64,000 nucleotides of DNA from Archangium sp. GTDB lineage: Bacteria; Myxococcota; Myxococcia; Myxococcales; Myxococcaceae. The stretch spans positions 496,001 to 560,000 of the forward strand of contig JAUXRX010000007.1 in the NCBI GenBank assembly GCA_030681645.1, given 5' to 3'. Position 1 is the stretch's first letter; each line of letters begins with the position of its first letter. Below are positions 5,084 through 54,579 of this stretch, one piece after another. A program made the translations under genes and the position numbers. The notes under the pieces are model-generated. The model searched no databases. It saw only the letters and a list, made by a program, of their open reading frames with translations, and was not told the origin of the DNA.

Positions 5084-5109
5084 GCCTTCCCGCATTGCAC
5101 AATGCCCCC

Positions 5110-8911: not shown

Positions 8912-8971
8912 CGGGTGCGCCCGCCTGAGGCTGGCTCGCCCCGGCCCGGAGTGCGACATTCCCGGCCCCCG

Positions 8972-15507: not shown

Positions 15508-17369
15508 CGGGCCGCTCGCACCGGCAGCTTGATCGCGGCGAACTCGGACGCGCCGTGCAGCGCCAGGTAGTGCTTCGGCACGCCCATGCACACGCCGGCC
15601 GCGTCGCAGGTGGCGCAGGCGGGCACGCGCGTGAGCCACCCCTCTTCCCAGCGATGAAGGCGCGGCTGGCCCAGCAGCGGGCCCAGGTGCTCGGTGTCGC
15701 CGCCGTGCACGCACAGTGAAGGAATGCCGGTCGGATCTCCCAGGTCGTGCACCCGAAACCCGAAGGCGCGCCCGCGCTCGATGGCCTGCTTCAAGAGCCC
15801 GGCGTAGTCCGAGTAGCGGGGCACGTGCTGCAGCGCTTCCTCGCGGGTGGGGAACTCGTTGCGCGGTGAGTGAAACTGCAGGGTCACCTGCTCACGATGC
15901 GCGCCCCACCGCGCCTCGGCCATCGCCACGAAGTCCACCAGCAGGTGGGCCACGTCCTTGAAGATGAGGTGGTTGAGCAGCACCCGCACGCCCGCGGCGA
16001 GGAGCTTGTCGATGCCGCCGAGCGTGCGCCGATGCGTGCCCGGGGCCGCGGTCAAGGCGTCGGATAGCGCGCTGTCGGGCCCATGCAGCGAGACCTGCGC
16101 GCTGGTGAGGCCGGCCTCGCGCAGGGCGAGCGCCAGCCCGGGCTTGTCGAGCAGCACCGCGTTGGTCTGCAGCTCGATCTGCTCGAAGCCCTGCTGCTTC
16201 GCCGCGGCGACGTACTGGGCCAGGTGCGGCGAGAGCGTGGGCTCGCCCCCGGTGATGATGATGCGCTTCGAGCCGCGGGCCCGGCTCTGGACGATCGCCG
16301 CGTGCACCTTGTCCTTCGTCAGCTCGACGTTCATGTCCGCCAGCTCGCAGAAGGTACACACCTGGTTGCAGCGGTAGATGATGCCCAGGCGGCTGGTGGG
16401 CTCGGACACGTCGACGCCGTACTCGTAGTTCACGTGGAAGAACGTCTCCACGTCGGGCGCGCGCTTGACGTGCAGCCGGCTGCCGGGGCTCTTTCCCGGG
16501 CGCACGAACGGGGTCGCGTCTGGAACGGGGCTGACCTGCACGCCGCCGGTCGCCAGCTCGAGCTGACCGGCTGTGACGGTGCACCGGGTGGCCAGCGCGC
16601 ACGTGGCGCAGGCTGGGCTGGCGTCGTTCTTCTGCGCTTCGTGGTGCCGCAGGCTGTGCTCGAAGAGCCTGCGCACCGCCGGCTCGCTCCCCGGGTGCAC
16701 GCAGGCGATCAGCGGGTGCTCGGAAGAGGTCACCAGCTCAGCGCCATGCTCGCGAGCCGCGCGGGCGGCTTCGTCGAGCTCGGCCCCCAGCTCTGCGGGG
16801 CTCAGCGCGCTGCCTGGCTTGACGGTGCGCTCCCCGGCGCCGATGGGCGCCAGCTCGAAGCGCAGCACCCGGGGCAGGGCGCTGCGCAGGCCCGCCACCC
16901 GGGCGGCCGCCGGCGGGAGCCCGCGGGCGAGCGGCAGGCGCAGGGTGACGTCCCACCCGGCGTCGAGCGCGGCGGTGATGCCACGGAAGACGTGGCGGGG
17001 GCTCGAGCGGGTGCTCACCAGCGCGGCGTGCAGCTCGGGCGAGGTGGTGACCAGGGAGATCCGCGCCGCGGTCAGCCCCGCGGCCTTCAGCGCGCGCGCC
17101 TGCTCGGGGGTGAGCTGGGTCGCGTTGGTCTCGAGCGTGATGGAGGTGAAGCCCGCGGCGGCGCCGTGCCTCACCAGGCTGATCAGGTCGTCTCGCAGCA
17201 GCGGCTCGCCGCCCGTGAGCGTGAGGGCGCGCGCGCCCCCCGCCGCGGCCCGGTCGAGCTGCAACACCAGCTCGGCGAGGGGCGGATCGATCGAGGCCGC
17301 GTTCACCCGCGAGCAGAACGCGCAAGCCTGGCCACAGCGGCGGGTGACCAGCAACGTGGCGGCGTTCAT
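15504..17369 (-). CDS. Tandem two-domain radical SAM protein (E)
   Basis: The first barrel has CGQACAFC at residues 12-19, TGGEPLLRDD near 52 and CATCALATRC near 250. The second has CNQVCTFC near 333-340, TGGEPTLSPH near 370, VSLHGPDSALSDALTAAPGT near 420, IPSLCVHGG near 550 and CATCDAAGVCMGVPKHYLAL near 590. Both GGE motifs are intact, so both sites may be active. The second half is a close paralogue of the second half of B and of the single-domain enzymes. It lies 24 bases downstream of the DUF483-like gene and overlaps gene D by 4 bases. Function is inferred from context as peptide or protein modification. Confidence 0.87.
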   Translation of the reverse strand: MNAATLLVTRRCGQACAFCSRVNAASIDPPLAELVLQLDRAAAGGARALTLTGGEPLLRDDLISLVRHGAAAGFTSITLETNATQLTPEQARALKAAGLTAARISLVTTSPELHAALVSTRSSPRHVFRGITAALDAGWDVTLRLPLARGLPPAAARVAGLRSALPRVLRFELAPIGAGERTVKPGSALSPAELGAELDEAARAAREHGAELVTSSEHPLIACVHPGSEPAVRRLFEHSLRHHEAQKNDASPACATCALATRCTVTAGQLELATGGVQVSPVPDATPFVRPGKSPGSRLHVKRAPDVETFFHVNYEYGVDVSEPTSRLGIIYRCNQVCTFCELADMNVELTKDKVHAAIVQSRARGSKRIIITGGEPTLSPHLAQYVAAAKQQGFEQIELQTNAVLLDKPGLALALREAGLTSAQVSLHGPDSALSDALTAAPGTHRRTLGGIDKLLAAGVRVLLNHLIFKDVAHLLVDFVAMAEARWGAHREQVTLQFHSPRNEFPTREEALQHVPRYSDYAGLLKQAIERGRAFGFRVHDLGDPTGIPSLCVHGGDTEHLGPLLGQPRLHRWEEGWLTRVPACATCDAAGVCMGVPKHYLALHGASEFAAIKLPVRAAR

Positions 17370-17393: not shown

Positions 17394-18398
17394 TCACCCG
17401 GCACGCGAGGCCTCTTGCGGACGGGCGCCGAAGGGGAAGAGCCGCGCGTCGCGGGCCTGGAAGATCGGCACCCCATCGGCGAAGAGCGCCCCGTCGCGGA
17501 CGAAGACCCCCCTCGCCCGGGCCACCAGGGCCGCCAGCCGCGCGGAGGCCTCCCGGGCCTGCTCGTTCAGAGGGGCCTGGGGGTGGCGGTCGCGCGCGCT
17601 CGGCCACGCCCGCCCGACCTCGAGCACGCCGTCTTCCAGGGGGCCGGTGATCGAGACCTGCACGTCCTCGAACGCGAGCAGGCGGTGCGCCCCGAGGGCC
17701 AGGTCCACCTCGGCGACGAAGCGCTCGTGCCGGCAACCCGGGGGGCAGGGCGGGGGGGACGCTCCGCGGGCCCCTCCCAGGAACTGACCGTGCCGCGCGG
17801 TGAGGTGGTGCGCCACGGCGTCTGCCCAGGCCTTCGAGGTCGCGCAGTCGAACGAGCACGGCAGCCAGCTGATGAAGTGGAAGATGGACAGGTCGAGGCA
17901 GTTGAGCCGCGGCGCGAACTGCCTCGAGGCCGCGAACGCCCGGTGAAACGCGTCGACGTTGTGGCGGGGGGGCGGCAACTCCAGGTACGCCTCGACGCAG
18001 CAGCGGGGGTAGCCCAGCAGCCGGCCCAGCTCGAGATCGTGATCGGCGCTGGCCTCGCAGGCGATCGCCTCGCGCACCCGGCGCTCGTCGCGGCCGACGA
18101 AGAGCACGGTGCCGCCGGTCGAAGGGCCCGACACCCGGTGGCTCGTCTCGCCCAGCGCCAGCCCGAGGCGGCCGAAGCGCGCGCGGGCGGCGGGCAGCTC
18201 AGCCGCCGGGAGCACCTGGCGGAGGAGGGGCTTGAGCCCTGCGAAGAGCGCGACCTCGTCGGCCTCCCCGCTGCCCAGCGCGTACGCGAGCGGACGGGCA
18301 GTGGCCTCGACGCGCGCCTGCGCCAGCCGCGCCGGATCGACGAAGTGCAGCGCGGCGATGAGGTCCTGCGCGGACGCGCAGACGGCGGGGGAAGGCAT
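17394..18398 (-). CDS. DUF483-like protein
   Basis: The 334-residue protein contains LGRLLGYPRCCVEAYLE near residue 130 and WLPCSFDCATSKAWADAV near 180. The GYPxCC motif followed by a second Cys pair is what I associate with the DUF483 family, known mainly from methanogens. The four Cys could bind metal or an iron-sulfur cluster. The same arrangement is fused to the non-canonical rSAM protein C three genes downstream, so this domain probably works with rSAM chemistry. The chosen ATG (18398) avoids overlap with the divergent lipoprotein gene; the frame is open to another ATG at 18446. No biochemical role for the family is known to me. Confidence 0.65.
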   Translation of the reverse strand: MPSPAVCASAQDLIAALHFVDPARLAQARVEATARPLAYALGSGEADEVALFAGLKPLLRQVLPAAELPAARARFGRLGLALGETSHRVSGPSTGGTVLFVGRDERRVREAIACEASADHDLELGRLLGYPRCCVEAYLELPPPRHNVDAFHRAFAASRQFAPRLNCLDLSIFHFISWLPCSFDCATSKAWADAVAHHLTARHGQFLGGARGASPPPCPPGCRHERFVAEVDLALGAHRLLAFEDVQVSITGPLEDGVLEVGRAWPSARDRHPQAPLNEQAREASARLAALVARARGVFVRDGALFADGVPIFQARDARLFPFGARPQEASRAG

Positions 18399-18436
18399 GA
18401 ACGCCACTCGACCGTACCCGATGCTACGGTCGGCGG

Positions 18437-18934
18437 ATGTCGTCACCTTCGACCTCCCGAATCGCCCTCGCCGCGGGCCTGTTGACCCTGGCCGCGCTGA
18501 ACCTCGCCTGCTCCCGGGACGCCGCCCCGCCCAGGCCGCTCACCGCGCCGCGCGACGCCGAGGCCGCCGAGCTGGCCGTGGTCGCGCCGCTGGTGAAGGG
18601 GGGCACGCTGCTCAACTACACCGTCGAAGACATCAAGCGGGTGCCGGGGCAGGGCCTGCTGGTCGTGCTCGTCAAGGCGGGGGCGTTCCTTCCAGACGGG
18701 GGCGAGAGTGACGGAGGGCCCGGCTGCGATCCGTCTCACCCCGACGAGGCCAGGGCCGGCCTCGCGGTGTCGCTCGTCTCGAAGGAGGGCTCGCCGGGCG
18801 CGGTGATCAAGGGGCCGTATGCGATCTGGACCCGGCCGGTGAACGTGCCCCAGGCCGAGGCGGACCGGCTGGCCGCGGCCCTGGCCGCCCTCATCGACGC
18901 CGACCGCCCGGTCCCGGCCTCACTCTCGCACTGA
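18437..18934 (+). CDS. Lipoprotein of unknown function within the rSAM block
   Basis: The N-terminus has a signal peptide with a lipobox (LAALNLAC), so the protein should be lipid-anchored outside the cytoplasm. The mature part of about 140 residues has a beta-rich core (LLNYTVEDIKRVPGQGLLVV, GAVIKGPYAIWTR) and a C-terminal helix followed by RPVPASL. This pattern resembles the Tat-exported protein at 30398-30838, which ends with a similar helix and LPVPKL. It is transcribed away from the E-D-C operon and toward the Hxs operon; a stem-loop repeat pair separates it from rSAM F. It could be a substrate or partner of the rSAM enzymes, but nothing in the sequence proves this. Confidence 0.7.
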   Translation: MSSPSTSRIALAAGLLTLAALNLACSRDAAPPRPLTAPRDAEAAELAVVAPLVKGGTLLNYTVEDIKRVPGQGLLVVLVKAGAFLPDGGESDGGPGCDPSHPDEARAGLAVSLVSKEGSPGAVIKGPYAIWTRPVNVPQAEADRLAAALAALIDADRPVPASLSH

Positions 18935-19036: not shown

Positions 19037-20533
19037 ATGGCTCGGCGTGCAGACATCAAGACGGGCTACACCTGCAACAGCAACTGCGTCTTCTGTGTGA
19101 TCGGCGACAAGCTGTTCACCGGAGATCGCCCGACGGCCGACGTGATCGAAGAGATGAAGCTGTCGCGCAAGACCTGCGACGACATCGTCTTCACCGGGGC
19201 CGAGGTCACGCTGAGGCCCGACTTCTTTCACCTGCTCGAGGCCGGTCGGCGCCTCGGGTACCGCAACATCCAGGTGCAGACCAACGGGCGGCTCTTCGCC
19301 TACCCGGACTTCTGCGAGAAGGCGATCAAGGCCGGCGCCAACGAGTTCGCGCCCTCGCTGCACGCGCCGATCGCCAAGGTGCACGACGGCCTCACCCGCT
19401 CGCAGGGCTCGTTCGGGCAGATCATCACCGCGATCAAGAACCTGAAGTCGATGGGCCAGCGCATCGTCACCAACACCGTGGCGGCCAAGCAGAACGTGAA
19501 GCTGCTCCCTGACCTGGCGCGGCTCTTCATCGAGCTGAAGGTGGACCAGTTTCAGATCGCCTTCCCGCACCCCACCGGGCACGCGGCCACCTACTTCAAC
19601 GCCGTCGTCCCGCGCATGAAGGACCTCGCCGGTCCCCTCCAGGAAGCGCTGCGCATCGGCGAAGCGGCCGGCGTGCCCTGCATGGCCGAGGCGATGCCGT
19701 ACTGCATGATGCCCGGCCACGAGCGCTTCGTGAGCGAGCTGTTCATTCCGCCCACCGAGATCGTCTACGACGGCTTCGTCATCCCCGACTACAAGCGCGA
19801 CCGCATGGAGCGGGGGAAGACGCGGTTCCCCCAGTGCGCCACCTGCCGCTTCGAGCCGATGTGCGAAGGCCCCTGGCGCGAGTACCCCGAGATGTTGGGC
19901 TCCGACGAGTTCCAGCCGGTGTCCGGCCCGCGCGTGCTCGACCCCGAGATCGTGATCGACGATCGCTTCACCCTGCTCGGCACCGCCTCACCGCCGTTCG
20001 AGCTCCCCTCGGGCGACGGCCGGGTGATCAAGTCCACCGAGCTCTCCGGCAAGTGGGTCGCCCTGGCCTTCTACCCGGAGGACGGTTCGCCGGGCTGCAC
20101 CGCCGAGGCCTGCAGCCTGCAGGCCGGGCTCACCGGGCTGGCGGCGGCGGGCATCACCCTGGTGGGCGTGAGCCCTGACGGCGTCGAGCGCCATCGCGCC
20201 TTCGCCCAGCAGCACGGCCTCGCCTTCCCGCTCCTGTCCGACACCTCGGGCGCGGTGGCCGAGGCGTTCAAGGCGCGGCGGAACGGCCAGCTCCGCCGCA
20301 GCACGTACCTGCTCGGGCCTGATCGGAAGATCGCCCACGTGCTGGTCGAGCCCGACGTGAAGCACCACGCCGCGCAGATCCTCGACGCGGTGAAGCGCTT
20401 CGAGGCCGGCCCGCGCTCGCTCGAGAAGGGCCCCGAGCTGGTCATTCGCCGCAGCGTGAAGCCCACGTCCGAGGCCGTCGCGGAGCTGGGCATCGCCGAG
20501 GGCGATCACCAGCAGTTCCTCAGCCCTGAATGA
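19037..20533 (+). CDS. Radical SAM protein fused to a C-terminal peroxiredoxin (F)
   Basis: The rSAM barrel has CNSNCVFC at residues 13-20, PSLHAPIAKVHDGLTRSQGS near 110, MPYCMMPG near 220 and CATCRFEPMCEGPWREY near 268. The usual GGEP is replaced by TGAEVTLRPD, which is unusual because the Gly-Gly-Glu helps to hold SAM. From about residue 315 to 470 there is a peroxiredoxin of the BCP type: WVALAFYPEDGSPGCTAEAC places the peroxidatic Cys and a second Cys five residues later, as in bacterioferritin-comigratory proteins. A fused thiol peroxidase could protect the clusters from peroxide or act on the same substrate. The stop overlaps the start of gene G (ATGA). It is the first gene of the plus-strand operon that includes the Hxs genes. 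Confidence 0.85.
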   Translation: MARRADIKTGYTCNSNCVFCVIGDKLFTGDRPTADVIEEMKLSRKTCDDIVFTGAEVTLRPDFFHLLEAGRRLGYRNIQVQTNGRLFAYPDFCEKAIKAGANEFAPSLHAPIAKVHDGLTRSQGSFGQIITAIKNLKSMGQRIVTNTVAAKQNVKLLPDLARLFIELKVDQFQIAFPHPTGHAATYFNAVVPRMKDLAGPLQEALRIGEAAGVPCMAEAMPYCMMPGHERFVSELFIPPTEIVYDGFVIPDYKRDRMERGKTRFPQCATCRFEPMCEGPWREYPEMLGSDEFQPVSGPRVLDPEIVIDDRFTLLGTASPPFELPSGDGRVIKSTELSGKWVALAFYPEDGSPGCTAEACSLQAGLTGLAAAGITLVGVSPDGVERHRAFAQQHGLAFPLLSDTSGAVAEAFKARRNGQLRRSTYLLGPDRKIAHVLVEPDVKHHAAQILDAVKRFEAGPRSLEKGPELVIRRSVKPTSEAVAELGIAEGDHQQFLSPE

Positions 20534-22320
20534 AAGCGCTGGTCAAGGTCGGCTACGGCTGCAACGAGAACTGCACCTTCTGCCACACCCTCGAGTACCG
20601 CGAGGAGAACGGCACCTCGGCCGAGGTGCACCGGAAGATCGATCGCGCGCGCGAGCTCGGCCACACCATGGTCGTGCTCTCGGGGGGCGAGCCCACCATT
20701 CGCCCCGAGCTCTTCGAGTGGGCCGCGCACGTGGCGATGCGGGGCATGGACTTCGGGCTGGTCACCAACGGCCTCATCCTCGCGTACCCCGACGCGCTGG
20801 CGCGGCTGCTCGAGTCGCGGCTCAAGTACGTCTACATGTCGCTGCACGGCGGCACGGCCGAGGTGCACCAGCGCGTGGTGCGCGCCGACACCTTCGGTCC
20901 CGCCATGACGGCGCTGGGCAACCTCACCGGGAAGGGCCTCGATCTCACCGTCAACGCGGTGATCGTGAAGCAGAACCTCGACGGGTTGGTCGCGCTGGTC
21001 GACGCGGTGCTCCCGTACCCCGACGCGGTCATCAAGTTCTCCATGCTGCAGCCCAAGGGCGGCGGCAAGGCGCTCTTCGACACGCTCACCCCGCGCGTGT
21101 CCGACGTGGCCGCCCGCGTGCGCGAGGCGATCGCCCATGGCCTGGCCCGGGGCGCCGCGCGGACGCGCTTCGTGCACGACGGAATTCCGTTCTGTCTCCT
21201 GCCGGGGCTCGAAGATCGCTACGACGATCTGCGCACCCACCGCTTCGCCACCATGGTGGAGACCGACGAGTCCGACTTTCACCCCGTGGATGACGTGGCG
21301 AAGGTGCAGCCCGCCCCCTGCGAGGGCTGCTCGCTGCGGGGCGCGTGTCCCGGGCTCTACCGCGGCTACCACGAGGCCTTCGGCGACGCAGAGCTGAAGC
21401 CCGTGTACGGCGGGGCGCGCTCGAACTCGTTCAACTACACCCTGGAGGCCGTCGCGCCCGCGCCCGGGCAGGGCTGCCTGCTGCTCCGCGACGGGGTGAC
21501 GCCGTGGGATCGCGCGCGGCACCTCTTCGTCGCGCACCAGGGGAAGGTGGCGCGCTACCGCACCGACACCCGCGACTTCGCCGACGTCGAGCTGAGCCGC
21601 ATCAAGCACGAGCGCGGGCAGGTCTACTTCGACGCCTCGCGCAAGGACGCGCCCGATGACTTCGCCCGCGACCTGGTGCCGCTGACCCGCAGCGCGCTGT
21701 GCACGGGGTGCGCAGAGAGGCCCCGCTGCACCGGGCTCTACGAGCCGCGCTTCGACGACGTGTTCTCCCGCGACGACGGCCGGGTGCGCGCGATCCTGGA
21801 AGGGCTCTCGGGGCGCGTGCTCGACGTCGGCTGTGGCGGGGGCCCGTACGACGAGGTGCTCGGCCCGCGGGTGCGGTCAGGGCACGTCGAGTACGTGGGC
21901 GTCGATCCTTCTCCCGGGGCGATCGCTGCGCTGACGGCGCGCCGCGACTGGGGCACGCACCACGTGGGCACCGCGGAGGCGCTGCCCGGCCTCGGCACCT
22001 TCGATCACGCCCTGGTGCTCCGGTCCTGGAATCACCTGGCCGATCCCTCCGCGGCGCTCGACCGGTTGCTCGCCTGCCTGCGGCCCGGAGGCTCGCTCCT
22101 CGTGGTGGACAACGAGGCCTTCGGGCTGGCGCGCTCGCCCGGCCAGGCCCGCCAGGGCGAGCGGTCCGGCGCGGCCTTCGAGCACTACCGCAACGACTCC
22201 GCCGCGGACGCGCTGCGCTACTTCGCGGGCAGAGCTCTTTGGCTGCAGGAGCGCGCTGACTGCGGGCCCACCACCAGCAACCAGTGGCTGCTCCGCTTCA
22301 CCGTGGCCCTCGGTGCTTGA
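20530..22320 (+). CDS. Radical SAM protein fused to a class I methyltransferase (G)
   Basis: The N-terminal barrel has CNENCTFC at residues 11-18, SGGEPTIRPE near 57, MSLHGG near 103, IPFCLLPGLEDRYDD near 220 and CEGCSLRGACPGLYRGYHEA near 265. A linker of about 100 residues with another CTGCAERPRCTGLYEP motif follows. From about residue 425 a Rossmann-type methyltransferase begins with VLDVGCGGGPYDEVLG and VGVDPSPGAI, and continues through the expected LRPGGSLLVVDNE strand. The protein therefore combines a radical enzyme with conventional SAM-dependent methyl transfer. The start is translationally coupled to F by a 4-base overlap, and the 3' end overlaps the next gene by 8 bases. Confidence 0.87.
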   Translation: MKALVKVGYGCNENCTFCHTLEYREENGTSAEVHRKIDRARELGHTMVVLSGGEPTIRPELFEWAAHVAMRGMDFGLVTNGLILAYPDALARLLESRLKYVYMSLHGGTAEVHQRVVRADTFGPAMTALGNLTGKGLDLTVNAVIVKQNLDGLVALVDAVLPYPDAVIKFSMLQPKGGGKALFDTLTPRVSDVAARVREAIAHGLARGAARTRFVHDGIPFCLLPGLEDRYDDLRTHRFATMVETDESDFHPVDDVAKVQPAPCEGCSLRGACPGLYRGYHEAFGDAELKPVYGGARSNSFNYTLEAVAPAPGQGCLLLRDGVTPWDRARHLFVAHQGKVARYRTDTRDFADVELSRIKHERGQVYFDASRKDAPDDFARDLVPLTRSALCTGCAERPRCTGLYEPRFDDVFSRDDGRVRAILEGLSGRVLDVGCGGGPYDEVLGPRVRSGHVEYVGVDPSPGAIAALTARRDWGTHHVGTAEALPGLGTFDHALVLRSWNHLADPSAALDRLLACLRPGGSLLVVDNEAFGLARSPGQARQGERSGAAFEHYRNDSAADALRYFAGRALWLQERADCGPTTSNQWLLRFTVALGA

Positions 22321-23905
22321 GCTCGAAGCCGCGTCGTGGGTGCTGTTGACGGCCCTGCTGGGGCCCTTGTTCTGGAAGGCCGCCCGCCACGCGCGCAACG
22401 AGCACGCCGCCGCCCCACTGCTGGTGCTCCTCGGCCTGACCGTGGTCGCGCGCCTCGCGGTGCCGTTCGCGCCACCCAACTGGTACATGGGAACCACCGA
22501 GGTGGGCGCGTTCTTCACCCGGGCCACCGCGGTGATCCCGCTCCCGAGCCGCCTGGCCCTCTCGGTGGCCCGCGATGAGCTCGGGATCCGCACTCTCAAC
22601 CTGGCGTTCAGCCTCGGCAGCGTGCTGCTGTTCTGGTTCACCGCCGCGCGCGCGGGGCACACCCGGCGCACCGCGCTGGTGTTCGCCGGCTTCTTCGCCC
22701 TCGTGCCGATGTACGTGCGGCTCGCGGCCTCTGATGACGGGGTGGTCACGGCGCTGCTCTTCCTGTTCTCGGTGGCCGCCGCCGCGCGGGTGGAGCTCCA
22801 GGACCCCGGCGGCGCGCCCTGGGCCTGGCCGCTGCTCGCGCTCGCGATCGTTCTGGCGATGCCCCTTCGCCTCGAATCGGGAGTGCTGGTGCCGCTGGTG
22901 GGCTTCTTCGGCTGTCGCGATCGGATCAGTTGGCGAGGCTTCTTCCCCAGCCCAGCGGTCGCGGTCACGGTGCTGCTGGCCACCGCCGTGGGCGCCTGGC
23001 GGATGCTGGAGCTCCACCACCAGTCGATGGGTGTCCACGCCGTGAACGCGCTGGGCCTGGCGAACGCGCTGATCGGCGGGGTGCTCTTCATCGTGAACCC
23101 CGCCGGCCCGCAGTTCTTCAGTCCCCTGCTCGCGGTGCCCATCTGGATCTTCGTGGTGAGGCGTTGGCGGGCGCGCGACTTCGCGGGCCTGGTCGCGCTC
23201 TACGTGCCAGTGCTGCTCGCGCGCGTACCCACGATCTTCAATGACGGCCCCTTCGTCATGTTGCCCGCGGCGCGCTACCACGTGCTCTCGGTGGTGTTCA
23301 TTCTGCTCGCCAGCGCCCGGGCCATCGACGAGCTGCCCGCCTGGTTCGCGCGGCGCCCGGTGCGGGTGGCAGGCGCGCTGCTGCTCGGGCCCGTGGCCTG
23401 GGTCACCCTGGTGGTGCCGGGGCGCTTCACCTACGCCTACCAGGAGGAGTACCTCTTCCTGCGCCAGGCGCTCCCACGAGAGGGGACGGTGGTCACGCTG
23501 TGGGATCCCCTCCCCGGGCGCAACGATCTCGACTGCTGCCTGGCCCTGCCCTCGCAGCGCCTCAACGCCCAGTTTCCGGGCTTGCGGTGGGTGGTGCTCG
23601 GCGCCGGGGTCACGGAGGCCGAGCTGGCGGCGGTGTCTGCCGACTTCTACTACCCGGGCTCGATGAGCTCGCTCGACCCCTCGAGCCTGGACGTCTGGTG
23701 GCGAAAGCTGGTCGCCCCGCCCGAGACGCGCGCGCTTCACCGCGCCCACATCGCCCGGCTGCGAGCCCTCGATCAGCAGCTGCGCGCTCGATTTTCCCCC
23801 GAGCCCGTGGCGGCACGCGGGGTGCCTGCCCACACCTTCTCCGATGTGGGCTTCCGCGACGACTGGCTCCCACTGGAGTTCCTGGCGCGGCGGCAAGCAC
23901 GTTGA
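22313..23905 (+). CDS. Multi-pass membrane protein, possible GT39/ArnT-like glycosyltransferase
   Basis: The 530-residue protein has roughly ten hydrophobic segments in the first 390 residues and a soluble C-terminal part. The layout, with an acidic pair after an early membrane segment (NWYMGTTEVGAF) and loops rich in aromatic residues, resembles polyprenyl-phosphate-dependent membrane glycosyltransferases of the GT39/GT83 type. I did not find a decisive motif, so this is a weak family guess. The GTG start overlaps the end of G by 8 bases, which ties it to the rSAM operon. It might glycosylate or export a product of the pathway. A 93-base gap follows before the HxsD-like gene. Confidence 0.6.
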   Translation: MLELEAASWVLLTALLGPLFWKAARHARNEHAAAPLLVLLGLTVVARLAVPFAPPNWYMGTTEVGAFFTRATAVIPLPSRLALSVARDELGIRTLNLAFSLGSVLLFWFTAARAGHTRRTALVFAGFFALVPMYVRLAASDDGVVTALLFLFSVAAAARVELQDPGGAPWAWPLLALAIVLAMPLRLESGVLVPLVGFFGCRDRISWRGFFPSPAVAVTVLLATAVGAWRMLELHHQSMGVHAVNALGLANALIGGVLFIVNPAGPQFFSPLLAVPIWIFVVRRWRARDFAGLVALYVPVLLARVPTIFNDGPFVMLPAARYHVLSVVFILLASARAIDELPAWFARRPVRVAGALLLGPVAWVTLVVPGRFTYAYQEEYLFLRQALPREGTVVTLWDPLPGRNDLDCCLALPSQRLNAQFPGLRWVVLGAGVTEAELAAVSADFYYPGSMSSLDPSSLDVWWRKLVAPPETRALHRAHIARLRALDQQLRARFSPEPVAARGVPAHTFSDVGFRDDWLPLEFLARRQAR

Positions 23906-23998
23906 AACGGATGGGTTGAGTACGGCCGCATTACCGGTCACACTCGCCCGCTCCCTCGACTTGCCCGCCTTCCCCGGATACCTGCGCGCAGCGCACCC

Positions 23999-24496
23999 AT
24001 GAACCACACGATCACCACGCAGCTCACCGACGGCACCGCGACCTTCGCGGTCGACCCCGCGCTCTACCCGCTCGACGCCCTCTACGGCGCGGCCTACATC
24101 TTCATCGATCGGTGCTTCGTCTTCCTCGACAAGGACGCGAAGGGACACGTGCTGGTCAGCCTGTCTCCCAAGAAGGGCCCAGCCGACGAGGCCACCCTGA
24201 AGAGCTGGGCGGGCGAGTTCGGCAACGAGCTGCTGTCCTGCGCCTGGCGCCACCAGATCGCCGCGGCCAACCGCCAGGTGCTGGAGCAGGTGACCAGCCT
24301 CGCGCTCGCCGGCGCCATGGGCCCCCCGTCGCTGGACGATCTCTCGAACTTCGACTTCTCCAGCCAGCCGCTGGAAGACCCGCTGGGCATCGCCCAGTCG
24401 TGGGAAGAGAAATACAAGAAGAAGGCCCCCGCGGCCGCCGCCGACAAGGCGCCGGAGACCACCAGGCCTGGCCCGAGCGGAGACAAGGCACCATGA
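23999..24496 (+). CDS. HxsD-like small protein of the His-Xaa-Ser system
   Basis: Residues about 15-100 show the HxsD pattern: YPLDALYGAAYIFIDRCFVF (helix then strand), VLVSLSPKKG (strand), and EFGNELLSCAWRHQIAAANR (helix), corresponding to the F-x-N-E-L-L...LR region from which the family was defined. HxsD is an invariant small partner of the rSAM pair HxsB/HxsC and the repeat peptide HxsA; its molecular job is not established, but a peptide-chaperone role is plausible. The C-terminal 60 residues are a Lys/Ala/Pro-rich extension that typical HxsD proteins do not need. The stop overlaps the next start in an ATGA. The 93 bases upstream are the longest gap in the operon, so a separate promoter may exist there, but I see no clear one. 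Confidence 0.75.
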   Translation: MNHTITTQLTDGTATFAVDPALYPLDALYGAAYIFIDRCFVFLDKDAKGHVLVSLSPKKGPADEATLKSWAGEFGNELLSCAWRHQIAAANRQVLEQVTSLALAGAMGPPSLDDLSNFDFSSQPLEDPLGIAQSWEEKYKKKAPAAAADKAPETTRPGPSGDKAP

Positions 24497-24714
24497 CGCG
24501 CCTCGCCTTCCACAAGTCGCTCTACGCCGGCACCGCCGTCGACGAGGCGGTCAAGACCTTCGCGCCCCACGCCACCTTCGAGCTCAGCGAGACCGAGTCG
24601 GCCTGGGTGGTGCAGCTGTCCGCCGCCGAGCCCCGCAAGGAGCTGCGGGTCGCCCGCGAGCTGGGCAACTTCGCGCTCGGCCTCACGGTGCAGAACCGCA
24701 AGGCGGCCGCTTGA
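24493..24714 (+). CDS. Second, short HxsD-like protein
   Basis: The 73-residue product repeats the helix-strand-strand-helix order of its upstream neighbour: SLYAGTAVDEAVKTFAPHAT, then FELSETESAWVVQLSA, then VARELGNFALGLTV, where ELGNFAL aligns with the EFGNELL block of the longer protein. This makes it a probable diverged duplicate of HxsD that keeps only the core. It is tightly embedded, with 4-base overlaps at both ends (ATGA before it, TTGA after it), so its stoichiometry is probably set with HxsB. Standard Hxs loci as I know them have one HxsD gene. It could be the actual partner of one of the two rSAM maturases. Confidence 0.65.
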   Translation: MTRLAFHKSLYAGTAVDEAVKTFAPHATFELSETESAWVVQLSAAEPRKELRVARELGNFALGLTVQNRKAAA

Positions 24715-26204
24715 ACCTCGAGCTCGTCAAACTCGCCCCGCGGCTCGACGTCTCGTCGCAGGCCTTCTTCCGCTTCCGCCAGGTGGGGAAGAAGGTGCTG
24801 ATCACCAACTACGAGGGCTTCTGGGCCCTGCTCTCGCCCGAGGAGTTCGAGCGCTACGCCACCGGCACGGTGGACCCCGCCTCGCCGCTCCACCAGCGCC
24901 TGTCCGACAACAACTTCCTCAAGGCGACCTACGACACCCGCAAGGCCGCCGACCGCCTCTGGCAACGGCGGCAGGCGCTCACCACCGGCCCGAACCTCCA
25001 CCTGCTCATCGTCACCCTGCGCTGCAACGAGACCTGCGTGTACTGCCACGCCTCGCGCGCCGGCATGGACGCGGTGCAGACCGACATGAGCAAGGAGACG
25101 GCCGAGAAGTCGATCGACCTCATCCTCCAGAGCCCGAACCCGAACCTGACCATCGAGTTCCAGGGCGGCGAGCCGCTGGTGAACTTCGAGGTGGTCAAGC
25201 ACGCCATCGCCTACGCCAACGAGAAGAACAAGGTGGCGGGCAAGCAGCTCGAGTTCACCATGGTGTCCAACCTCTCGCTGATGGACGACGAGAAGCTGGA
25301 CTACCTGCTGGCGAACCGGGTGCAGCTGTGCACCAGCGTGGACGGCCCGGAGCACCTGCACGACGGCCAGCGCAAGCTGCCCAGCGGCAGCGCGCACGAG
25401 AAGGCCACGTACTGGATGAAGCGCATCAACCAGGCCTACGCCGACAAGGGCCTCGACCCCACGCTGTACCGGGTGGAAGCGCTGCTCACGACCACGAAGG
25501 ACTCGCTTCCGCTCTGGAAGGAGATCGTCGACACCTACGTCAGCCTGGGCTGCCGCGCGCTCTTCCTGCGCCCGGTGGATCCCTTCGGGTGGGTAGAGAA
25601 GACGGCGCGCCGGGTGGAATACCCCCGCGAAGACTTCATGGAGTACTACCGCAACGCGGTCGACTACATGATCGAGCTGAACCTGAAGGGCGTGCAGGTG
25701 CTCGAGCGCTACGCCGCGATCTTCCTCTCGAAGTTCTTCGGCAACGACCCCAACTTCCTCGACCTGCGATCGCCGGCGGGGGCTGGCATCGGGTGCCTCG
25801 CCTTCAACTATGATGGCAAGGTGTTCACCTGCGACGAGGGCCGCATGCTGCACGAGATGGGCGACCCCAGCTTCCTCATCGGCGACGTGACGGGCTCGAA
25901 GTACAAGGAGCTCGTCAGCCACCCCACGGTGCGCTCGATGGTGCTGGCCAGCAACCTGGACGGCCAGCCCGACTGCGTCAACTGCACCTACAACCCGTAT
26001 TGCGGCACCCAGTCGACGCACAACCACAAGAAGTTCGGTTCCGTCTTCGGCCGCGCCCGCGAGAGCACCATCTGCGCGGTGCACAAGGGCATCCAGGACT
26101 TCCTCTTCGAGCGCCTGTCTGCCGACGATCCGAAGGTGCTCGACGTCTTCCAGAAGTGGACGACGAACCGGCCCCGAACGCACTTCCTCCAACCGAGCGC
26201 CTGA
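24711..26204 (+). CDS. hxsB: His-Xaa-Ser system radical SAM maturase HxsB
   Basis: The 497-residue protein fits HxsB along its length: an N-terminal domain with FFRFRQVGKKVLITNYEG, the rSAM motif CNETCVYCHAS at residues 105-115, DMSKETAEKSID, IEFQGGEPLVNFE near 145, FTMVSNLSLMDD near 185, and TSVDGPEHLHDG near 205. The SPASM part includes GCLAFNYDGKVFTCDEGRML near 365 and CVNCTYNPYCGTQS near 423. HxsB is an rSAM/SPASM enzyme that is invariably encoded next to the repeat peptide HxsA and presumably modifies it, using the radical cluster plus auxiliary clusters; the product structure is not established as far as I know. The TTG start overlaps the previous stop (TTGA). The precursor gene follows 4 bases after its stop. 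Confidence 0.88.
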   Translation: MNLELVKLAPRLDVSSQAFFRFRQVGKKVLITNYEGFWALLSPEEFERYATGTVDPASPLHQRLSDNNFLKATYDTRKAADRLWQRRQALTTGPNLHLLIVTLRCNETCVYCHASRAGMDAVQTDMSKETAEKSIDLILQSPNPNLTIEFQGGEPLVNFEVVKHAIAYANEKNKVAGKQLEFTMVSNLSLMDDEKLDYLLANRVQLCTSVDGPEHLHDGQRKLPSGSAHEKATYWMKRINQAYADKGLDPTLYRVEALLTTTKDSLPLWKEIVDTYVSLGCRALFLRPVDPFGWVEKTARRVEYPREDFMEYYRNAVDYMIELNLKGVQVLERYAAIFLSKFFGNDPNFLDLRSPAGAGIGCLAFNYDGKVFTCDEGRMLHEMGDPSFLIGDVTGSKYKELVSHPTVRSMVLASNLDGQPDCVNCTYNPYCGTQSTHNHKKFGSVFGRARESTICAVHKGIQDFLFERLSADDPKVLDVFQKWTTNRPRTHFLQPSA

Positions 26205-26208
26205 GCCC

Positions 26209-26499
26209 ATGCCGACCTTCAAAGACGACGAATTCGCCGAGCTGCCCAGCTTTGCCAAGAAGCCCTCGGGGGCGCTCGACACCGTGCAGCAACAGATCAC
26301 CGACAACTCGCTCGACGCCGCGCGGGAAGGCCGGGTGGTGATGCCGCAGGGTGACGGCCAGGTGTTCCTGGCGCAGCACTGCAGCCACGGCTCGCACGGC
26401 AGCCACGGCAGCCACGGGTCGCACGGCAGCCACGGCTCGCACGGCAGTCACGGCAGCCACGGCAGTCACGGCAGCCACGGTTCGCACGGCAGCTGGTGA
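26209..26499 (+). CDS. hxsA: HxsA-like His-Xaa-Ser repeat precursor peptide
   Basis: The 96-residue product has a leader-like N-terminal part (residues 1-56, starting MPTFKDDEFAELPSFAKKPS) and a repeat core (57-95) made of one His-Cys-Ser and twelve His-Gly-Ser triplets, then a final Trp. The His-x-Ser array next to HxsB and HxsD is the defining feature of HxsA. No signal peptide is visible, so modification probably occurs in the cytoplasm before any export. The core has a single Cys, at its start. Its gene begins 4 bases after hxsB and its stop overlaps the next rSAM start (GTGA). The Ser codons mix TCG, AGC and AGT, which argues that the peptide sequence is selected rather than produced by recent slippage. 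Confidence 0.87.
   Translation: MPTFKDDEFAELPSFAKKPSGALDTVQQQITDNSLDAAREGRVVMPQGDGQVFLAQHCSHGSHGSHGSHGSHGSHGSHGSHGSHGSHGSHGSHGSW
26377..26493 (+). repeat. 9-bp tandem repeat array encoding (His-Xaa-Ser)13
   Basis: Thirteen in-frame 9-bp units of the type CAC-GGC-AGC lie back to back. All His codons are CAC; Ser codons are seven AGC, four TCG and two AGT; Gly codons are mostly GGC, with one GGG and one GGT, and the first unit has TGC. It is coding, not a CRISPR array. Confidence 0.95.
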
Positions 26500-27548
26500 C
26501 GAGCCTGAACGCCCGGCCCACCCCCATCGAGCCAGGCGTCGAAGAGCGCATCGCCGCGCGGCAGGAGCGCGTGCACATTCTCACGGGCCCCACCTGCAAC
26601 AACAACTGCACCTTCTGCATGGAAGAGGACCGCGACGGCCGGATCGTCACCAACAGCGCCACCACCGACGCGGTGGTCCAGAAGATCCTCGCGGACAACC
26701 GGGGCTGCGAAGAGGTGTGCTTCACCTCGGGTGAGCCGACGGTCAACCCGCGCCTGGCGCAGTGGGTGAAGTGGGCGAAGGAAGCGCAGGTGCGCCGCAT
26801 CAGCATGATGACCAACGGGCGCACCCTCTCGTACGAGAAGTACGCCCGCATCTTGATGGGCGCGGGGATGAACCGGTTCTACGTCAGCATTCACGGGCAC
26901 ACCGCGAAGCTGCACGAGTCGCTCACCCGCACCCCCGGCAGCTACGAGCAGACGGTGGGCGGGCTGGAGATGGTGACGAAGTACAAGCGCTACGGGCTCG
27001 AGCTCCACACCAGCACGGTGGTGACGCGGCAGAACCTGCCGTACCTGGGCGAGATCTACCGGTTCCTGCGCAGCAAGGGCGTCGACCAGGTGGTCTTCAA
27101 CGTGATGCAGGCCAACGGGCGGGCCAACACGCACTTCGACGTGCTCTTTCCCCGCTACACGGACATCGCGGCGGCGGCGAAGGCGTTCATCGACGAGGAG
27201 TCGAAGAGCGGCCAGCCGGGCGGCGTGCAGGCCTTCTTCGTCGACATTCCGCTGTGCACCACCACCGCGCTGCCCGATCTCAACCGCGGCTACGTCGAGA
27301 GCTACGTGCACTACGAGCCGCTGGCCAGCGGGGCGAGGCTGATCGGCCAGGACGAAGTGGCGGCGCGGTCGGAGGGCGGGGAGATCGTCGGCATCAAGCG
27401 CAGCGACCTCGACGACGCGCAGCGCACCAAGCGCGCCGAGTGCGCGACCTGCCGGTACACCGCCACCTGCGAAGGGGTGTGGAAGAACTACCTCAAGCGC
27501 TACGGCTGGGACGAGTTCGTGCCCGTCTCGCCGCTCCCGCGGGGCTGA
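26496..27548 (+). CDS. Radical SAM protein in the HxsC position (I)
   Basis: The 350-residue enzyme has CNNNCTFC at residues 34-41, TSGEPTVNPR near 77 (Ser in place of the first Gly of GGEP), VSIHGHTAKLHESLTRTPGS near 130, IPLCTTTALPDLNRGYVE near 250 and CATCRYTATCEGVWKNYLKR near 320. By position, directly after HxsA and coupled to it by a GTGA overlap, it takes the place of the second maturase HxsC. HxsC proteins share the SxHG...HD...PG type of block, but I cannot confirm subfamily membership by eye, since the same block occurs in most rSAM proteins of this cluster. The auxiliary Cys set predicts one extra [4Fe-4S] cluster. Confidence 0.8.
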   Translation: MTSLNARPTPIEPGVEERIAARQERVHILTGPTCNNNCTFCMEEDRDGRIVTNSATTDAVVQKILADNRGCEEVCFTSGEPTVNPRLAQWVKWAKEAQVRRISMMTNGRTLSYEKYARILMGAGMNRFYVSIHGHTAKLHESLTRTPGSYEQTVGGLEMVTKYKRYGLELHTSTVVTRQNLPYLGEIYRFLRSKGVDQVVFNVMQANGRANTHFDVLFPRYTDIAAAAKAFIDEESKSGQPGGVQAFFVDIPLCTTTALPDLNRGYVESYVHYEPLASGARLIGQDEVAARSEGGEIVGIKRSDLDDAQRTKRAECATCRYTATCEGVWKNYLKRYGWDEFVPVSPLPRG

Positions 27549-27555
27549 AGGCCCG

Positions 27556-28491
27556 ATGGCGAACATCGGCTACATGCAGGTGGTGCGGCACTGCAACCAG
27601 TACTGCCGCTTCTGCAGCAACCCTTCCAGCGGCTACATCCTCGATCTCGCCACGGCGAAGAAGGAGATCGACGACTTCGCGCAGCGGAAGTACTTCGGGG
27701 TGATCCTCACCGGGGGCGAGCCTTCGCTCTCGCCGATCATCCCCGACATCACCCGCTACGCGGTCGAGCGCGGGCTGCACGTGCGCATGATCACCAACGG
27801 CTCGCAGCTGGCGAAGCCGGGGCTGGCGCAGCAGTACTTCGACGCGGGCCTGCGCCACTTTCACGTGAGCATTCACAGCGTGCGCGAGGGCGTCGAAGAC
27901 TTCCTCACCGGGGTGAAGGGCAGCTACGTGCAGGCGATGGACGCGCTCGAGCACCTCGCGGCGGTGGGCGCGACCATCAACATCAACACGGTGATCAACC
28001 GCTTCAACGCGGATCACCTCGACGAGAACGTGCGCGAGCTCTACTCGCGCTTTCCGGCGATCAGCCACCAGGTGTGGAACAACCTGGACCCGTCGATGGG
28101 CCGCGCCGAGACGAACCGCGACACCGCGCACCGCCTGGCCGACTTCGAGCTCTCGCTGACGCGGGCGATGCGCTGGCTGCACAAGGCGGGCAAAACCTTC
28201 AGGGTCGAGCGGGTGCCGCTCTGCTACATGACCGAGTTCGCGCACTGCTCGACCGAGACCCGGAAGATCGTGAAGAAGGAAGAGCGCATCGTGCACTTCC
28301 TCGACGAGAAGGGGACCATTCGGCAGACCGACTGGATGCACGCGAAGTCGAAGGCGTGCCAGCAGTGTTCGCTCAACGACATCTGCGGCGGGCTGTTCGA
28401 GCTGGGGGATCATTACGACCTGGGTGAGCTGCACCCGGTGTTCATTCCCCCGCAGCCCATCGTCGATCGGGTTCTGGCTGATCGCGACTGA
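27556..28491 (+). CDS. Radical SAM protein (J)
   Basis: This 311-residue enzyme has CNQYCRFC at residues 13-20, TGGEPSLSP near 52, VSIHSVREGVEDFL near 103, VPLCYMTEFAHC near 222 and CQQCSLNDICGGLFELGDHY near 275. It is the most compact barrel of the group. The His/Ser block reads SIHS rather than SIHG. It starts 7 bases after gene I and is the last gene of the plus-strand operon. A 206-base gap follows, with no gene that I can support, before the convergent regulator. It is a second candidate for the HxsC role or for a later step on the peptide. Confidence 0.83.
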   Translation: MANIGYMQVVRHCNQYCRFCSNPSSGYILDLATAKKEIDDFAQRKYFGVILTGGEPSLSPIIPDITRYAVERGLHVRMITNGSQLAKPGLAQQYFDAGLRHFHVSIHSVREGVEDFLTGVKGSYVQAMDALEHLAAVGATININTVINRFNADHLDENVRELYSRFPAISHQVWNNLDPSMGRAETNRDTAHRLADFELSLTRAMRWLHKAGKTFRVERVPLCYMTEFAHCSTETRKIVKKEERIVHFLDEKGTIRQTDWMHAKSKACQQCSLNDICGGLFELGDHYDLGELHPVFIPPQPIVDRVLADRD

Positions 28492-29350: not shown

Positions 29351-30391
29351 CTAACCGTCCTTCGCCTTGAACAGCTCGGGGAAGATGCCCTTCAACGCCT
29401 CGCCCGACTTCCTGTCCTTCGAGGAGACCTCCGCCGTCGCGGGCACGCCCTTGCCCATCTCCCCCAGCTGCGCGCGCGCCGTCGCCGGGGGCGCAGGCAC
29501 CACGATGTTCTCCGGCACGAACGTCTCTCCGGGGCCCGTGAACATCCGCGCGATGCCGTCGAGCGGGGCCGGGGCAGCGAGCGCGTTGGCGACCGGCGTG
29601 AGCTCGTCGTCTCCAAAGCGGGCGAGGTAGGTGGCGTCGACGCCCGAACACCGCTCCCTCGCCGGGCAGCCCGCACATTGCGGCGCGAACGCGCGGGGGG
29701 CGCCAGGCAGCGCGCGGGTGATGAAGGGCCCCAGCAGGCAGCTCGGAATTCCAGAGACGAAGGTGCGCAGGCCCAGCCTCTGCGCGGCGTCGAGGGCGTG
29801 GAGCGCGTACGGCACCGCCAGCGCGAGGCGGGGGATCACGCGATCCATGGCGGCCACCGCGCGCCCGGCCACCAGCGGAGCCGTCACCTGCCACGCGCTC
29901 ACGCCGCGGGACTGCAGCAGGGGGCCGATGGCGTTGAGCACCCGGTAGTTCGAGCGCGTCATCACCGTGGTCGCCACCACCTGCAGGCCGTGCGAGCGCG
30001 CCACGCCCAGGCCCGCCACCAGCGCGCGGAAGCTGCCCTCGACCGCCGTGTGGTAGTCGTGCACGGCGGGTTCTCCACCGAGCACCGTGACGTGCACGTC
30101 GGTCAGGCCCGCCGCCGCGAGCGCCGGGGCCAGCGAAGCGAGGAGACGGCCGTTCGTCTGCAGACCCACCCGCTCGAAGCCCTGCGCGCGGGCCAGCCGG
30201 ATCACCTCTGCGAGGGCTGGCTGCAGCGTCGGTTCGCCCCCCACCAGGGTGAGCTCGGTGGCGCCGGTGCCCCGCAGTCGCGCCAACTCGGTCGCGAGGT
30301 CAAGGGGAGATGAAGGCGGCAGCGCGTCCTGCGAGCAGAAGACACAGGCGTTGTTGCACGCGCGGCCGAGCGACAGCGTGACGCGCGTCAT
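29351..30391 (-). CDS. Radical SAM protein (K)
   Basis: The 346-residue protein has CNNACVFC at residues 12-19, VGGEPTLQPA near 50, VTVLGGEPAVHDYHTAVEGS near 100, IPSCLLGPF near 220 and CAGCPARERCSGVDATYLAR near 247. The SxHG block has become VTVLGG, which is unusual. After the auxiliary-cluster motif there is an extra tail of about 80 residues that ends KAKDG, has no Cys, and is not shared with the other members. Its ATG is 6 bases downstream of the stop of the Tat-signal protein gene, so the two are probably co-transcribed, with the regulator following. This pairing makes the Tat protein a candidate substrate. Confidence 0.83.
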   Translation of the reverse strand: MTRVTLSLGRACNNACVFCSQDALPPSSPLDLATELARLRGTGATELTLVGGEPTLQPALAEVIRLARAQGFERVGLQTNGRLLASLAPALAAAGLTDVHVTVLGGEPAVHDYHTAVEGSFRALVAGLGVARSHGLQVVATTVMTRSNYRVLNAIGPLLQSRGVSAWQVTAPLVAGRAVAAMDRVIPRLALAVPYALHALDAAQRLGLRTFVSGIPSCLLGPFITRALPGAPRAFAPQCAGCPARERCSGVDATYLARFGDDELTPVANALAAPAPLDGIARMFTGPGETFVPENIVVPAPPATARAQLGEMGKGVPATAEVSSKDRKSGEALKGIFPELFKAKDG

Positions 30392-30397
30392 CGGGGG

Positions 30398-30838
30398 TTA
30401 CAGCTGCGCGATCGCGTGCTGGCGCAGCGTCACCAGCTTCGGCACCGGCAGACCGGTGGCCTCGTAGTGCTCGAGCCACTCGCCCAGCGCGCGGGCGGCC
30501 TGGCCTTCACGCTCTTCTGTCGGCCCGCCGTGGTTGCACACGTAGATCGACAACGAGCGGGACTGGCCGACACCCGGAATGCCCGAGTCATCGCGCTTGA
30601 GCACGTTGAGGCGGAAGTGGTCTGCGCCGTCGCGCAGGTGCACGGCGACTGCACCCTGAATGAGGTGCACCGCCTCGACTTCCCACACGCCGAAGAGGGT
30701 GAGGCCCGGCTCGAGGCTGCGGAAGGGCAGCGGCTCGCCCGGCGCCTGCGTCGTGGCAGGAGGGGGAGCGGCCAGCGCCGGGGCTGCGATCGCTCCGACT
30801 CCAAGCCAGGTCACGACATCTCGGCGGCGCAGTGTCAT
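30398..30838 (-). CDS. Tat-signal exported protein of unknown function
   Basis: The N-terminus (MTLRRRDVVTWLGVGAIAAP) has an Arg-Arg-x-Asp pattern before a hydrophobic stretch and an ALAA cleavage site, as expected for a twin-arginine signal peptide; export of a folded, possibly cofactor-bearing or modified protein is implied. The mature part of about 120 residues has strands (FGVWEVEAVHLIQGAVAVHL, SRSLSIYVCNHGG) and a C-terminal helix ending LPVPKL. It resembles the lipoprotein at 18437-18934 in order of elements. It contains one Cys followed by Asn-His-Gly-Gly. The gene leads a small operon with rSAM K and is divergent from rSAM L. Confidence 0.7.
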   Translation of the reverse strand: MTLRRRDVVTWLGVGAIAAPALAAPPPATTQAPGEPLPFRSLEPGLTLFGVWEVEAVHLIQGAVAVHLRDGADHFRLNVLKRDDSGIPGVGQSRSLSIYVCNHGGPTEEREGQAARALGEWLEHYEATGLPVPKLVTLRQHAIAQL

Positions 30839-30849
30839 CGGAGTCGCGA

Positions 30850-30878
30850 GGTTAGGGGCTGCGCGTGAGCGAGGTCAA
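30850..30878 (-). promoter_or_regulatory. Possible promoter of the Tat-protein/rSAM K operon
   Basis: On the minus strand TTGACC (30878-30873) is followed after 17 bases by CTAACC (30855-30850), about 12 bases before the ATG. The -35 is good but the -10 is weak, and the leader would be very short. Confidence 0.3.
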
Positions 30879-30896
30879 GTCATACACTCGCGCGCC

Positions 30897-39319: not shown

Positions 39320-39354
39320 GGGGCCCACGAACGTAGCCCAACGGGGCAGCGGCG

Positions 39355-54568: not shown

Positions 54569-54579
54569 GGGAGGCCATC

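Follow-up and report, generated by a model that had tools for sequence, protein, structure and literature searches.

An expanded His-Xaa-Ser system in Archangium pairs a Ser-His-Gly repeat precursor with co-inherited radical SAM genes

The window analyzed here, a 64,000-nucleotide stretch of an Archangium sp. genome (assembly GCA_030681645.1, contig JAUXRX010000007.1), encodes a His-Xaa-Ser (Hxs) system of the HxsA4/HxsC4 subtype, in which a repeat-containing precursor peptide lies beside genes of the radical S-adenosylmethionine (SAM) superfamily. We found that five radical SAM genes outside the named families of this subtype, which we call A, B, J, r15, and r16, are co-inherited with the repeat, and it is this size of the system that is new here. 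Judging from sequence patterns, we think it probable that a single precursor, composed of strict Ser-His-Gly units, is the shared substrate of HxsB and no fewer than four other radical SAM enzymes (A, B, J, and r16), and that the product is exported. This reading builds on direct observation of which genes are present, how the repeat is conserved, what is co-inherited with it, and where signal motifs occur.

A His-Xaa-Ser core of the HxsA4/HxsC4 subtype

The core consists of six packed genes (23999-28491), in the order HxsD, HxsD_rel, HxsB, HxsA4, HxsC4, and J, with spacings of -4, -4, +4, -4, and +7 bases (Table 1). All five proteins that have an NCBIfam model (all but J) score above the curated cut-offs, and the region is a His-Xaa-Ser system of the HxsA4/HxsC4 subtype. 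The preliminary description of this DNA, made from the sequence alone, had proposed an Hxs system with HxsB, two HxsD-like proteins, and a (HGS)12 precursor. This proposal held up, including the HxsB and HxsD profile matches on which it had been staked. Its count of seven genes from the first HxsD-like gene to J has to be lowered to six, and of its "two more radical SAM genes", both of which do encode radical SAM proteins, one is the already named HxsC4, so that J alone is unnamed. No copies of J were found on plasmids, and none in viral contigs when P0003, a relative that is 89% identical, was the query.

All of the listed genes are open frames at their coordinates, and a codon-composition pick of coding frames recovers every one of them except HxsD_rel. 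Because that pick missed the 73-residue frame, the assignment of HxsD_rel as a gene rests on its family match. A PqqD-like leader-recognition element is common, but not universal, in the biosynthesis of ribosomally synthesized and post-translationally modified peptides (RiPPs). The predicted structure of HxsD is confident over residues 11-110; it has no significant match in the PDB, and, by title, no PqqD or other leader-recognition protein is among the best 50 matches of either list. Subunits of RNA polymerase and chaperones of type III secretion are among its weak structural matches.

The precursor and its repeat array

HxsA4 is laid out as a leader, one HCS unit, exactly 12 HGS units, and a C-terminal Trp, and the repeat is also reported by Tandem Repeats Finder. 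A leader-core precursor beside its maturases is a RiPP-type arrangement. To count arrays we required at least six consecutive SHG or SHA units, which yielded 45 complete distinct arrays in the fetched loci. These contain 8 to 58 SHx units each, 708 altogether, with Gly at the x position in 690 units and Ala in the other 18. Every one of the 45 ends in Trp, as HGSW in 36 cases and HGQW in 9, and the repeat is interrupted in one array (L090) by a single Gln in place of His. All six Ser codons are used across these arrays and the residue is unchanged; therefore, the array is kept as a protein and is not an artefact of DNA slippage.

The array is found just upstream of HxsC4, on the same strand, in 25 of the 27 array-bearing HxsC4 loci, and a leader motif of approximately LPxFxxxxxxxL, judged by eye, recurs among the precursors. 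An Omnitrophota protein that NCBI also calls HxsA4 has an array that includes SHS units and ends in HGQW. Two loci have tandem precursor arrays, with 12 and 17 units in L060 and 34 and 58 units in L101.

Radical SAM genes co-inherited with the array

We surveyed 195 genomes of the phylum, taken as Myxococcota, at E-value limits of our own choosing, for the array and its candidate partners. The HxsA4 model scores above its cut-off in 15 genomes, and a sixteenth, G165, reaches 43.3 bits and has the same array ending in Trp. We refer to these 16 genomes, which are spread over seven families, as SHG genomes. The radical SAM part of A is present in 17 of the 195 genomes, comprising all 16 SHG genomes and one extra (p=2e-22 in Fisher tests, which assume independent genomes). 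Likewise, r16 is present in all 16 and two extra (18 genomes; p=1e-21), J in 15 of the 16 and one extra (16 genomes; p=3e-20), B in 14 and one extra (15 genomes; p=2e-18), and r15 in 12 and two extra (14 genomes; p=4e-14). Two further radical SAM genes have a narrower distribution, all of it in SHG genomes: r13 at >50% identity in 5 genomes and r2 in 4. HxsB is more widespread, scoring over its cut-off in 31 genomes (15 SHG genomes, G007, and 15 others), and in those 15 others A, J, and r16 have no match at the set limits.

The co-inheritance of A, B, and J with the array makes this an expanded system, in agreement with the "larger variant" of the preliminary description. The bounds given there, 19037-28491, proved too narrow, as r12 with its small neighbor u30, r15, and r16 belong to the system too, within a radical SAM island that spans 6710-39328. 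The co-inheritance makes it a fair inference that the peptide receives several radical modifications.

Could these genes travel together simply because they are neighbors? In G053 this would be easy to imagine, as B, A, r16, J, HxsC4, HxsB, r15, and the array all lie within ~20 kb of one contig, and A adjoins J in G002-G007 and G009. The parts are nevertheless often apart, being spread, among other cases, over four contigs in G056, three in G163, and two in G009 (these are draft assemblies, in which some contigs may adjoin), and therefore linkage alone fails to explain the co-inheritance. A related arrangement is seen in the loci L087-L099, where HxsC4 identity is 27-32% and an array is present in 11 of 13 loci. 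Where complete, these loci have as many as four radical SAM genes after HxsB and HxsA, and further on r16-like genes (35-48% identity, seven loci) and J-like genes (50-52%, six loci).

Export-type signals in the precursor or in a partner

The precursors of L006, L008-L012, and L017 carry the motif T-R-R-x-(F/L/V)-(L/V), of the TRRDFL type, followed by a hydrophobic stretch; in L013, L014, and L019 the precursors have such a stretch but lack the Arg pair. No twin-arginine (Tat)-like or hydrophobic signal is present in the window's own precursor. Here, u30 has a twin-arginine motif. The u30 family is represented in 24 fetched loci and the window, not all of them independent; R5 and R6 are nearly invariant among 14 aligned members, and in L087, L090, and L095 the gene shares four bases with the start of HxsD. 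In a Foldseek search with u30, the best E-value was 0.19. At the level of single loci, u30 is never beside a signal-bearing precursor. We also tried the stricter rule that a system has either a Tat signal in its precursor or else u30, and this rule fails, because L083, taken as a contig of G053, has both u30 and a Tat-type array. Altogether, the signal motifs in the precursors and the presence of u30 make it likely that the product is located outside the cytoplasm.

Proposed pathway and alternative explanations

We propose that the leader would be bound with the help of HxsD and HxsD_rel, and that HxsB, A, J, and r16 would then work along the array unit by unit, altering His and Ser side chains by radical C-H chemistry. 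HxsC4, r12, r13, and r15, all present in the window's lineage, may join in the modification as lineage options. B may methylate, and the PrxQ domain on A may clear peroxide near the oxygen-sensitive clusters. In the finished product, the His residues would form a rigid array with even spacing. Its export would rely in some lineages on a Tat-like or hydrophobic signal that the precursor itself carries, and in others, this genome among them, on help from the Tat-motif partner u30. As to function, our best guess is a modified rod on the cell surface that binds metal or is redox-active.

We also offer, tentatively and with considerable doubt, a bolder version of this proposal: a widespread, unpublished peptide-polymer pathway, in which at least five co-inherited radical SAM enzymes would modify each repeat of a (Ser-His-Gly)n rod 8 to 58 units long, aided by methyltransferase and PrxQ fusions here and by an aKG-HExxH beta-hydroxylase in other lineages. 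The Tat-exported product would then present a surface array of modified imidazoles for metal or electrons.

Several observations weigh against a system of shared substrate and export. Related genomes are not independent, as the Fisher tests assume them to be. The partners are present, but no array was detected, in G001 (which is 70% complete) and G007. HxsC4 itself is a poor marker of the array: at >50% identity it is found in only 6 of the 16 SHG genomes (and in no others), and its weaker matches in G051, G004, and G005 land on gene A. We had considered HxsC4 as a universal partner and rejected this, since its weak matches are gene A. Outside the window's genus, in 14 genomes, only the radical SAM part of A is matched. 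The terminal Trp has an exception in the related protein P0249, which ends in HGNY, with Tyr. Only one of the seven Tat-type precursors passes the NCBI Tat model (L009, 20.2 against 16.7). Lastly, the preliminary description had expected close relatives to keep the repeat frame, and this is true of L031 and L032, but 28 of the 55 HxsC4 loci show no array within the fetched DNA. One of these, L084, keeps HxsD, HxsB, and HxsC4 with no array nearby; in L083, which lacks an array near HxsC4, an array lies further along the contig taken to be the same (G053:C9).

These array-less loci are what one would expect if only HxsB, HxsD, and HxsC4 acted on the repeat, and the other radical SAM proteins of the island served other substrates, having been clustered by duplication and transfer of HxsC-like paralogues. 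HxsC4 or HxsC is indeed the best curated model for 9 of the 13 radical SAM proteins in the window, as it would be for paralogues; relatives of r1, r2, r4, r5, and the DUF483 gene lie near HxsC4 in the array-less loci L053 and L055; and r2 has the very restricted distribution described above. We nonetheless consider this explanation unlikely, because A, J, and r16 follow the array in 15-16 of 16 genomes, even across contigs, and are unmatched in the 15 array-less genomes with HxsB.

Two other explanations concern the array itself. Strict Ser-His-Gly units, a near-invariant final Trp, and a recurrent leader motif exceed the needs of metal binding, and export-type signals in several lineages would remove HxsA4 from cytoplasmic enzymes. 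It is thus very unlikely that HxsA4 is a His-rich metal chaperone or store for the co-encoded iron-sulfur radical enzymes and not their substrate, even though its repeated His and its co-inheritance with many iron-sulfur enzymes would fit such a role. To the idea that the array is a collagen-like or polyglycine-II structural rod, shaped by Gly as each third residue and largely or wholly unmodified, we give the least credence of all. HxsA4 does pass the Pfam Collagen model by a small amount (27.8 bits against a cut-off of 27.2), and array length is variable, but the collagen-type rule of Gly at every third position without exception fails at the 18 Ala units, no unit contains Pro, and the array is coupled to HxsB and the other radical SAM enzymes.

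If the multi-enzyme pathway on a single precursor is correct, the co-inheritance leads one to expect that HxsB needs all of A, B, J, and r16 beside it, that HxsC4 is optional by lineage, and that the product leaves the cytoplasm. One repeated unit and five radical enzymes would make an unusually clean substrate for assigning the role of each enzyme. What had been a vague "expanded operon" is now a defined list of parts.

The fusion genes and the radical SAM island

The upstream genes A and B overlap by 4 bases, and Pfam and NCBIfam confirm the radical SAM-peroxiredoxin and radical SAM-methyltransferase fusions claimed in the preliminary description. The PrxQ fusion is kept in the window's genus and in L048-L050 and L052; because matches to A outside the genus cover the radical SAM part, the fusion is not general. 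In G005 the match to A extends to residue 372, crossing two stops. Two proteins labelled as from a Nanoarchaeota archaeon (P0227 and P0230) share 51-52% identity with A in its radical SAM part, which reflects either transfer or wrong binning.

A membrane protein gene overlaps B by 8 bases and is separated from HxsD by a 93-base gap. The preliminary description had included it in the system. It was unmatched by tblastn in L001-L099 and by blastp among the called proteins of those fetched loci that were searched, and in L031 HxsD comes directly after B, with nothing between; we therefore do not count it as a conserved part. L031 and L032, both Archangium metagenome-assembled genomes, hold the closest named HxsC4 relatives (87% and 81% identity, respectively), and the operon proteins of L031 are 81-94% identical to those of the window.

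The island at 6710-39328 contains 13 radical SAM genes with 18 CxxxCxxC motifs, and all 13 also have a CxxCx5C motif. When the 10.24 Mb genome was scanned with the HxsC4 model, 16 of 21 matches fell in this stretch and 5 elsewhere. Pfam finds two radical SAM domains each in 6710-8839, 8915-10789, 15504-17369, and 35220-37775, and one in 13570-15714; because only the second domain of the latter is matched, its first motif (CATPCPSC) is doubtful. The N-terminal half of r15 resembles B12-binding radical SAM methylases, with scores far below the cut-offs. A second radical SAM barrel in the C-terminal half of r16 is not supported, as hhalign matches only the last 55 columns, with an HxsC4-like Cys motif.

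Table 1. Coordinates of the Hxs genes, their partners, and other genes of the window
Feature	Coordinates	Strand	Evidence or remark
Tryptophan halogenase	5095..6705	+	PF04820, 355 bits
r2, two radical SAM domains	8915..10789	+	lineage-specific
r5, two radical SAM domains	15504..17369	-	partial copy in L031, 81% identical
DUF483 protein	17394..18446	-	beside double radical SAM gene r5
A, radical SAM fused to PrxQ-type peroxiredoxin (AhpC/TSA)	19037..20533	+	Pfam/NCBIfam; GCTAEAC, two-Cys motif typical of PrxQ
B, radical SAM fused to class I methyltransferase	20530..22320	+	Pfam/NCBIfam; VLDVGCGGG, the SAM-binding motif
Membrane protein, ~10 hydrophobic segments	22313..23905	+	weak PMT-like match, below cut-off; not a conserved part
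HxsD	23999..24496	+	TIGR03976, 57.2 bits vs cut-off 50; alignment of 23
HxsD-like protein (HxsD_rel), 73 residues	24493..24714	+	NF038315, 68.2 bits vs cut-off 41
HxsB, radical SAM maturase	24711..26204	+	TIGR03978, 537 bits vs cut-off 370
HxsA4 precursor, 96 residues	26209..26499	+	NF038313, 102.5 bits vs cut-off 55
HxsC4, radical SAM	26496..27548	+	NF038332, 575.6 bits vs cut-off 500
J, radical SAM, unnamed subfamily	27556..28491	+	best curated model HxsC, 89.9 bits, below cut-off 267.9
r12, radical SAM, 6 bases from u30	29351..30391	-	near u30 in L031, L033, L036, L045, L046
u30, small protein, twin-arginine motif and hydrophobic stretch	30398..30838	-	recurrent partner
r13, radical SAM	30867..31802	+	start assumed; lineage-level partner
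MopE-motif protein, 1127 residues	31850..35233	+	17 MopE putative metal-binding motifs (PF11617)
r15, two radical SAM domains	35220..37775	-	start uncertain; conserved from ~residue 76
r16, radical SAM, second C-terminal Cys cluster	37529..39328	-	co-inherited; conserved Cys
Di-haem oxidoreductase	54565..55899	+	PF06537; His-rich N-terminus (HGGHNHSHSHG)

An aKG-HExxH-type family was clustered from 14 fetched loci (e.g. L088:15746-16885 and L045:1557-2753). The HExxH-type motif is present in 12 members of this beta-hydroxylase-like family and absent from those of L033 and L087, and all three members scanned with TIGR04267 (aKG-HExxH peptide beta-hydroxylase) pass it, at 80.6-91.4 bits against 40. 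As a core part the enzyme was rejected: among 18 partner-bearing genomes only G056 is over the cut-off, and the window's genome reaches 22.1 bits, so that it is accessory at most. TIGR04267 matches also adjoin an HxsB-like gene (below cut-off) in G121 and G136.

Other neighbors recur near related loci. Copies of the tryptophan halogenase adjoin r15 in L031 (57% identity), lie between r15 and r16 in L074 (56%), and adjoin HxsC4 in L054 (53%); halogenation of the terminal Trp is an idea that comes to mind because all of the counted complete arrays end in Trp. Part of the MopE-motif protein encoded within the island is present in L031, and another MopE-motif protein is found in L104. Copies of the DUF483 gene are near HxsC4 in L031, L053, and L055. 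The window also encodes a di-haem oxidoreductase (Table 1).

Comparison with known systems

PMC9062424 credits the HxsB/HxsC proposal to Haft and Basu. In the literature outside subscription journals, covered by title and abstract opening, we found no characterized Hxs product or reaction, and came across neither signal-bearing precursors nor the co-inherited A, J, r16, B, and r15. One parallel is TvgA/TvgB, in which, according to PMC9062424, a repeated TVGG motif is converted to cyclopropylglycine. TvgA/TvgB resembles the present system in that a tandem-repeat precursor is modified at its repeats by a radical SAM enzyme, but it differs, as described there, in having a single radical SAM enzyme, other residues, and another precursor and neighbors (PMC9062424).

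Within the window, HxsB scores well below the models of the maturases GrrM (44.4 against 310) and YhhB (47.9 against 445), which sets it apart from them. GrrM and YhhB make three-residue cyclophane peptides, and their aromatic-X-X spacing of three could fit His-Gly-Ser. Classical Hxs systems, defined by HxsA (TIGR03979) and HxsC (TIGR03977), have HxsB and HxsD in common with this one. They differ in that the window's precursor scores 17.0 against the HxsA cut-off of 121.65 and the best of its radical SAM proteins scanned scores 113.7 against 267.9 for HxsC; moreover, A, J, and r16 have no match in the 15 HxsB genomes described above, a comparison based on HxsB and these three partners.

The nearest known system is the HxsA4/HxsC4 subtype itself. 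NCBIfam already defines HxsA4, HxsC4, and HxsD_rel, and the core is therefore of a known kind; the claim of an undescribed system, made in the preliminary description, does not hold for the named subtype, although it may for the co-inherited set of partners. To HxsA4, HxsB, HxsC4, HxsD, and HxsD_rel the window adds A, B, J, r16, r15, and the r12/u30 pair, and of these A, J, and r16 are more constant companions of the array than HxsC4.

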